NCBI GenBank assembly: GCA_030038995.1
Contig: JASHQS010000291.1
Coordinates: forward strand, 1 to 64,000
Source: Xanthobacteraceae bacterium
GTDB lineage: Bacteria > Pseudomonadota > Alphaproteobacteria > Rhizobiales > Xanthobacteraceae
Length of the DNA stretch: 64,000 bases
Direction of reading: 5' to 3'
Positions 33,002 through 61,714 of the stretch are shown piece by piece (within the stretch, counting starts at the first letter, position 1; every line of letters starts with the position of its first letter). The notes under the pieces are model-generated. The model ran no database searches. It was not told the DNA's origin and was given only the letters and a program-made list of their open reading frames with translations. Made by a program: the position numbers and the translations under genes.

Positions 33002-33179
33002 GCTCCCGCAAGAGTTTGCCGTGTTTTTGCACGAGCGTGCAGCAGGCCGCCGCGACGTCACTATTGTCAACCGGAAGATTTGCGGTAGCCCACGCCTCGA
33101 TCGATTCCGCCAGCGCCCGATGGCGCTGCTCGAAAAAGGCCAGGCGAGGACGGTCCTGTCGGGCATGTTAGCTCCGCTC

Positions 33180-33199
33180 ATTCCCGCGAAAGCGGGAAT
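33180..33199. repeat. REP-like hairpin
   Basis: ATTCCCGC and GCGGGAAT with a GAAA loop, the same palindrome as at 31338-31357 and 57535-57554 (in reverse sense). It lies in the 455-bp gap between the enoyl-CoA hydratase and CoA ligase genes, which otherwise holds the MITE-like element and no gene. Confidence 0.7.
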
Positions 33200-33245
33200 C
33201 CAGAAGCTCTCGGCTCGGCACCCTTATTGGGTCCCCGCTTTCGCG

Positions 33246-33421
33246 CATAGGCGCTAACATAGGCCTGTTTCCCGGATGCGGTGCAGCGCGAAGCGGTGCA
33301 CCGCTGATCCGGGACCGTCCCAGACTCCGCAACTTGTTACGATCCCGGGTCTGCAGCGCACCACTTCGCTGCGCTTCGTGCTGCGCTGCGCCCGGGAAAC
33401 GCAGCTATGTTAGCGCCTATG
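33246..33421. mobile_element. MITE-like element, copy 1 (176 bp, 17-bp terminal inverted repeats)
   Basis: The element starts CATAGGCGCTAACATAG and ends with the exact reverse complement CTATGTTAGCGCCTATG. It is flanked on both sides by CGCTTTCGCG (33236-33245 and 33422-33431), which looks like a 10-bp target-site duplication. The interior is a second, imperfect inverted repeat (GTTTCCCGG near the left, CCGGGAAAC near the right) with GC-rich subpalindromes, and it has no coding capacity. A copy differing by four substitutions and one 2-bp insertion is at 61537-61714. It sits inside an operon, between the hydratase and ligase genes. Confidence 0.8.
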
Positions 33422-33456
33422 CGCTTTCGCGATGATGAGCGGAAGGAGCAGACATT

Positions 33457-61536: not shown

Positions 61537-61714
61537 CATAGGCGCTAACATAGGCCTCTGTTTCCCGGATGCGGTGCAGCGCGCAGCGGTGCACCGCTGA
61601 TCCGGGACCGTCCCAGACTCCGCAACTTGTTACGATCCCGGGTCTGCAGCGCACCACTTCGCTGCGCTGCGTGCTGCGCTGCGCCCGGGAAACACAGCTA
61701 TGTTAGCGTCTATG
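61537..61714. mobile_element. MITE-like element, copy 2 (178 bp)
   Basis: It begins CATAGGCGCTAACATAG and ends CTATGTTAGCGTCTATG, the terminal repeats now having one mismatch. The interior is the same as in copy 1 (33246-33421) except for a 2-bp insertion and three internal substitutions. The flanks CTTTCGCG (left) and CTTTGGCG (right) look like a decayed target duplication. It lies between the substrate-binding-protein gene and livH, so it is again inside an operon and non-coding. Confidence 0.8.

Follow-up and report, generated by a model that had tools for sequence, protein, structure and literature searches.

A non-coding stretch of 176 bp within the window analysed here (the whole 64,000-nucleotide stretch of a Xanthobacteraceae contig) is in all likelihood a non-autonomous MITE, in which IS4-family ends surround an inverted pair of host REPs, and which was inserted at the axis of another REP by an IS4-family transposase acting in trans. 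Support for this explanation comes from the ends of the element, its target duplication, an empty site in relatives, its copy number and target preference, the existence of IS4-family insertion sequences (ISs) with matching ends and targeting, and decayed copies of such ISs within the genus.

Structure and copy number of the element

The element occupies positions 33246-33421 and is bounded by perfect 17-bp terminal inverted repeats, the right one (33405-33421, minus strand) being the exact complement of the left one (CATAGGCGCTAACATAG; 33246-33262, plus strand). Immediately outside these ends lie the two exact copies of a 10-bp target-site duplication, CGCTTTCGCG (33236-33245 and 33422-33431), the left of which is the centre of the target REP, GTCCC-CGCTTTCGCG-GGGAC, with its left outer arm, GTCCC, at 33231-33235 (plus strand). 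An earlier note on this DNA had described a non-coding element with such terminal repeats and such a duplication, and both are exact in the sequence and not attributable to chance: three shuffles of the window contained no end sites at up to three mismatches, and a reversed-pattern control was likewise empty (see below). The 176 bp contain no transposase gene. The body (33267-33400) is no featureless filler but a separate, family-wide inverted REP pair (a BIME-like repeat, GTTTCCCGG...CCCGGGAAAC), composed of hairpin A (33270-33314, plus strand) and hairpin B (33344-33396, minus strand), which is inverted relative to A; compared with its own complement, the element has a self-match of 69%. The long hairpin that had been predicted is borne out by folding, the element strand reaching -134.7 kcal/mol against -85.8 +/- 4.8 kcal/mol for shuffles (z = -10.1). 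We dismissed an Rfam match to the plant microRNA precursor MIR898 (31.8 bits, gathering threshold 75) as a chance hairpin match.

A second copy of the element, 178 bp long, lies at 61537-61714 (plus strand) within a TGCCCAGCTTTCGCGGGGCA palindrome, where an end-site scan of the window and flank comparison revealed an imperfect duplication. Across the draft genome (4.6 Mb in 316 contigs, 91% complete), 75 forward and 78 reverse end sites were found at up to two mismatches, corresponding to about 75 copies, whereas the reversed-pattern control yielded 0; many of these copies show duplicated flanks. Similarity searching recovered at least 40 copies at 95-100% identity, and in an alignment of full-length copies mean identity is 96% to the consensus and 93% between copies, which suggests that the element was amplified fairly recently. 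At one locus (G000:C87, 4110-4468; L105, 2611-2969), three element bodies stand in tandem at a spacing of 171 bp, with right ends intact and left ends degenerate.

An empty site in congeners

We compared the orthologous intergenic region in G018 and G009, the two closest congeners, whose adjoining gene is 91-92% identical. The element is absent from this place in both genomes, and the empty sites, GGGTTCCCGCTTTCGCGGGGACGAGCGG and GGGTCTCCGCTTGCGCGGGGACGAACGG, are single REP-type hairpins with one copy of the 10-mer each: the hairpin that is interrupted in our genome is unbroken in theirs. In both congeners, the overlap between the alignments of the left and right flanks is precisely the duplicated 10-mer, and this comparison, which the earlier note had named as a possible refutation, comes out in favour of insertion.

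Preference for REP palindromes as targets

For the analysis of targets, we used 50 distinct insertion sites with both flanks, drawn from the approximately 75 copies and rejoined with one copy of the duplication. The duplication was identical at all ten positions in 17 of these sites and at nine in a further 16 (33 together). At least six of eight palindromic pairs were present in 32 of the 50 sites (64%), compared with 0.94% of 20-mers in the window, and the mean number of pairs was 5.9 at insertion sites as against 2.2 at window positions generally. Most of the palindromic sites are the REP GTCCCCGC-TTTC-GCGGGGAC, whose hairpin axis, CGC-TTTC-GCG, consists of the ten duplicated bases. The target had previously been read as half of a REP palindrome, but it is the whole REP, of which the duplication represents the central 10 bp. 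The further suggestion of preferential insertion into such hairpins holds, both from the excess of palindromic sites over background and from the existence of REP-targeting ISs with matching ends.

The preference is strong, yet neither absolute nor exclusive. With up to two mismatches, 22 of the 50 insertions match GTCCCCGCNNNNGCGGGGAC (GTCCCCGCN4GCGGGGAC), a pattern that also occurs at 38 unoccupied sites, against 7 for the reversed control; subtracting the control leaves 22 occupied and about 31 free sites, so that roughly two fifths of matching REP sites are filled, an approximate figure that reflects the part of the copies recovered. Clean 10-bp duplications also occur outside this REP (GGCCGACGTG, CTGCCCCGCG, CGCGGATTGG and GCGCTGCGCT). 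About one third of the 50 insertions are without a clean 10-bp duplication, which, by analogy with ISRm22, we ascribe to recombination between copies or to decay; in several copies the loop reads TTTC on one flank and GAAA on the other, and such mixed flanks may mean that copies have recombined with one another, an explanation put forward for ISRm22 (PMC1525189). An intact REP of another type, ATTCCCGCGAAAGCGGGAAT, lies at 33180-33199 of the window, about 30 bp from the interrupted REP; REPs of this type are rarely hit by the element in this genome.

A probable partner insertion sequence of the IS4 family

Scanning 397 genomes of the order for CATWGGCGCTAACTTAAG led to a second IS4-type IS, L159, with GC-palindrome targets. 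The ends of this IS differ at two positions; its transposase, which lies beside a related end in another family, served as the query against 391 genomes of Xanthobacteraceae. Genus g48 harbours complete ISs of 1331-1336 bp (about 1.33 kb) with ends such as CATAGGCGCTAAGATAGT / CATAGGCGCTAAAATAGG and exact 10-bp duplications, whose targets, such as GTCCCGGCGAAGGCCGGGAC and GTCCCTGCGAACGCAGGGAC, are REP axes with eight of eight palindromic pairs. An exact-17-mer scan of GTDB genomes recovered a 1314-bp IS, encoding a transposase of 364 aa and bounded on either side by the identical 17-mer, from a Rhodospirillaceae metagenome-assembled genome (MAG); it also returned many single matches in unrelated phyla, which were not counted and were without a partner end. 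The IS with matching ends for which the earlier note had proposed looking is therefore found in g48 and in the Rhodospirillaceae MAG, likewise inserting into REP palindromes; none was found in the draft genome of the element itself.

In the IS4 family, a single ORF encodes a DDE transposase in which the spacing is D(60-110)D(100-150)E and the signature Y(2)R(3)E(6)K (PMC2266710). In transposases of the partner clade, D116, D175 and E312 are invariant, with spacers of 58 and 136, as is the YREK signature Y305-R308-E312-K319, and these proteins match both DDE_Tnp_1 and the NCBIfam IS4 model, with P0002 falling just under the NCBIfam cut-off. Judged by these sequence features, the partner IS can be assigned to the IS4 family. 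The target duplication of 10 bp, in the element as in the g48 ISs, spans about one helical turn, as is the case for this family. Assignment to a subgroup is not claimed, as the ends appear to lie between the IS231 and ISH8 patterns and the size resembles that of IS4Sa: the IS4Sa subgroup, which contains ISRm22, is characterized by ends CA------T, lengths of 1150-1750 bp and repeats of 8-10 bp (PMC2266710, Table 1), of which size and repeat length fit but end position 9 is C, not T; CATAGGCGCTAACATAG fits the ISH8 end pattern CAT-----------T, and the IS231 pattern CAT-------AA--TAA except for TAG in place of TAA; and the 1.33-kb partner is smaller than the typical ranges of the IS231 and ISH8 subgroups.

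A profile search of the element's genus detected decayed ISs of the partner clade as two fragments, in G009 and G018, both of which carry the short element. In the G009 fragment, a left end, CATAGGGGCTAAGATAG, precedes the first 77 codons, which have 75% identity to the g48 transposase P0002, and the G018 fragment (L294) is an internally deleted copy of about 250 bp with a transposase remnant; both lie within REPs, and their ends differ from those of the element at 2-3 of 17 positions. A partner-clade transposase was not found in the element's own genome, where absence is weak evidence given a 91%-complete draft in 316 contigs. Its three DDE_Tnp_1 matches were examined as potential partners and all rejected: L167 (DUF4372 plus DDE_Tnp_1) is bounded by CTGTCCGGCACGGTTTGTGC, L168, which is IS5-like (DUF4096), only lies close to a copy of the element, and L169 has other ends. 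The genome G410 contains IS4-type ISs (L156-L166) with ends CATAGGCGCTAACTTAAG, situated in GC palindromes such as GGGGCATGGCCCC and often at contig ends.

The mobilizing enzyme very probably belongs to this IS4-family clade, to judge from the matching ends and targets. Acting in trans, an IS4-family transposase would bind the 17-bp ends of the element and insert it at the axis of a REP palindrome through a cut with a 10-base stagger, duplicating the central 10 bp (CGC TTTC GCG), and repeated rounds would have brought the element to about 75 copies in this lineage, most of them in REPs. We infer both the involvement of this transposase and, by analogy with the IS4 family, a cut-and-paste chemistry; the source IS would have been lost from the genome or be missing from the incomplete assembly.

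REP pairs within the ends

The body repeat is not confined to the element: it has many copies in congeners and in further genera in which the 17-bp ends were not detected, and within this genome the 21-mer at the start of the body occurs at 163 sites, about twice the number of elements, such that around half of its copies lie outside the element. Because the body repeat also exists separately, without the ends, we regard the element as IS4-type ends placed around a host REP pair, and the repeat probably predates the element. In G075, which represents another genus of Xanthobacteraceae, the same ends enclose REP pairs; in an Acetobacteraceae MAG they again surround a REP pair, which is also found without ends, at the same REP-type target; and in Devosia they surround a REP pair known from end-bearing copies only. 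Tentatively, then, the enclosure of an inverted host-REP pair by the same IS4-type 17-bp ends, inserted at the axis of another host REP, could be an architecture that recurs across several alphaproteobacterial lineages (this genus, that of G075, the Acetobacteraceae MAG and, probably, Devosia). If these cases formed independently, they would suggest that DDE transposases, besides RAYTs, offer REP/BIME repeats a general means of hitch-hiking and of growing into composite repeats.

Lengths vary in G009, where the same ends also bound elements of 109-111 bp and of 205-249 bp, shorter and longer than the 176-bp form. Among its variants of 109-111 bp or about 249 bp, L136, L150, L152 and L154 carry an extra CGCGTTTACGCG-type palindrome, a modular exchange of the body. 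The genome G063 contains another short element family (L137, L142 and L146), with ends CATTGGCGCTAACTTAA / CATAGGCGCTAACTTAG and, at L142, the flanks GGGCTCGTCCC / GGGCTTGTCCC, which is probably a related MITE.

Alternative explanations

REPs are often thought to be mobilized by REP-associated tyrosine transposases (RAYTs; PMC3733652), and the body REP pair occurs without ends in the same genome and throughout the family, so one might regard the whole structure as a fixed composite REP/BIME, spread by a RAYT or by recombination with no DDE transposon involved, in which the flank repeat is simply part of a larger palindrome. But the empty site has exactly one 10-mer, 10-bp duplications accompany insertions at non-REP sites as well, and the ends of the element match those of ISs with DDE transposases; the empty site and the duplications of unrelated 10-mers largely refute this explanation, which we consider very unlikely. 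It is also very unlikely that the element is a simple internal deletion of a full IS4-type IS and that the free genomic repeats derive from its body. Such derivatives do form, as L294 in G018 illustrates, but the body is not recognizable in the terminal 70 bp of the ISs, and it occurs widely in genera in which no such ends were detected, as well as being end-less in about half of its copies here.

The very stable fold, together with a location between two minus-strand genes, could instead indicate that the element has been retained as a regulatory hairpin, stabilizing the 3' end of an mRNA or acting as an attenuator in the hydratase/ligase operon. We regard this as very unlikely: the element is absent from the orthologous place in congeners and scattered elsewhere in its own genome, the neighbouring acyl-CoA dehydrogenase gene has already decayed, and no promoter-like or intrinsic-terminator-like site was found. 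An IS4-derived MITE carrying a REP pair remains our preferred explanation.

Relation to known elements

REP targeting is known from ISRm22, an IS4-family IS of Sinorhizobium meliloti 1021, every copy of which is reported to interrupt a REP on its axis of palindromy (PMC1525189); a review of the IS4 family also discusses it, along with 10-bp-class duplications and end patterns (PMC2266710). As published, ISRm22 resembles the element in its family, its REP-axis insertion and its direct target repeats, some copies being mismatched, but it is autonomous, is present in 9-10 copies and has reported repeats of 6 bp, whereas the element is a gene-less 176 bp with about 75 copies and 10-bp repeats. The 1.33-kb ISs of g48 (L172, L174, L175, L177 and L181) share with the element a 10-bp duplication and the same type of REP target, with few end differences, but encode a 366-aa transposase and are without the REP-pair body. 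IS421 of Escherichia coli, also of the IS4 family, has ends CATAAGCGCTAACTTAAG and a transposase 37% identical to P0002; unlike the element, it is autonomous, about 1.34 kb in length, and has a longer duplication at one copy (L298). Like the element, MIC231 and other non-autonomous derivatives of IS231 (IS4 family) combine IS4-family ends with what we take to be mobilization in trans. MICs are larger and contain passenger genes, in place of which the element carries a REP pair. Derivatives of this kind, MIC231 among them, are named in PMC2266710.

In the literature searched, the end sequence of the element was not found, and no title or abstract described an IS4-family MITE in REPs; a new IS4-derived MITE family with an unusual REP-in-REP architecture is well supported. 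REP targeting had been described for autonomous ISs, ISRm22 among them; here it extends to an abundant element that is non-autonomous, and for which REPs serve as a landing platform, filled to the extent estimated above, where harm is probably small. MITEs and REP/BIMEs, usually treated apart, are joined here in one modular element, and a concrete transposase clade is now at hand for testing REP recognition by a DDE enzyme.

Gene context

An enoyl-CoA hydratase gene on the minus strand has its stop codon about 36 bp before the element, which is situated upstream of the ligase gene and separated from it by the remnant of an acyl-CoA dehydrogenase gene. The effect on expression of the ligase gene that had been suggested is possible. 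A congener retains, between hydratase and ligase, a 387-aa acyl-CoA dehydrogenase-like gene (L283, 268-1431), whereas at about 33018-33181 of the window some 970 bp have been lost relative to congeners and what remains is frame-shifted, with the start of the long ligase ORF at 33181 as a by-product.
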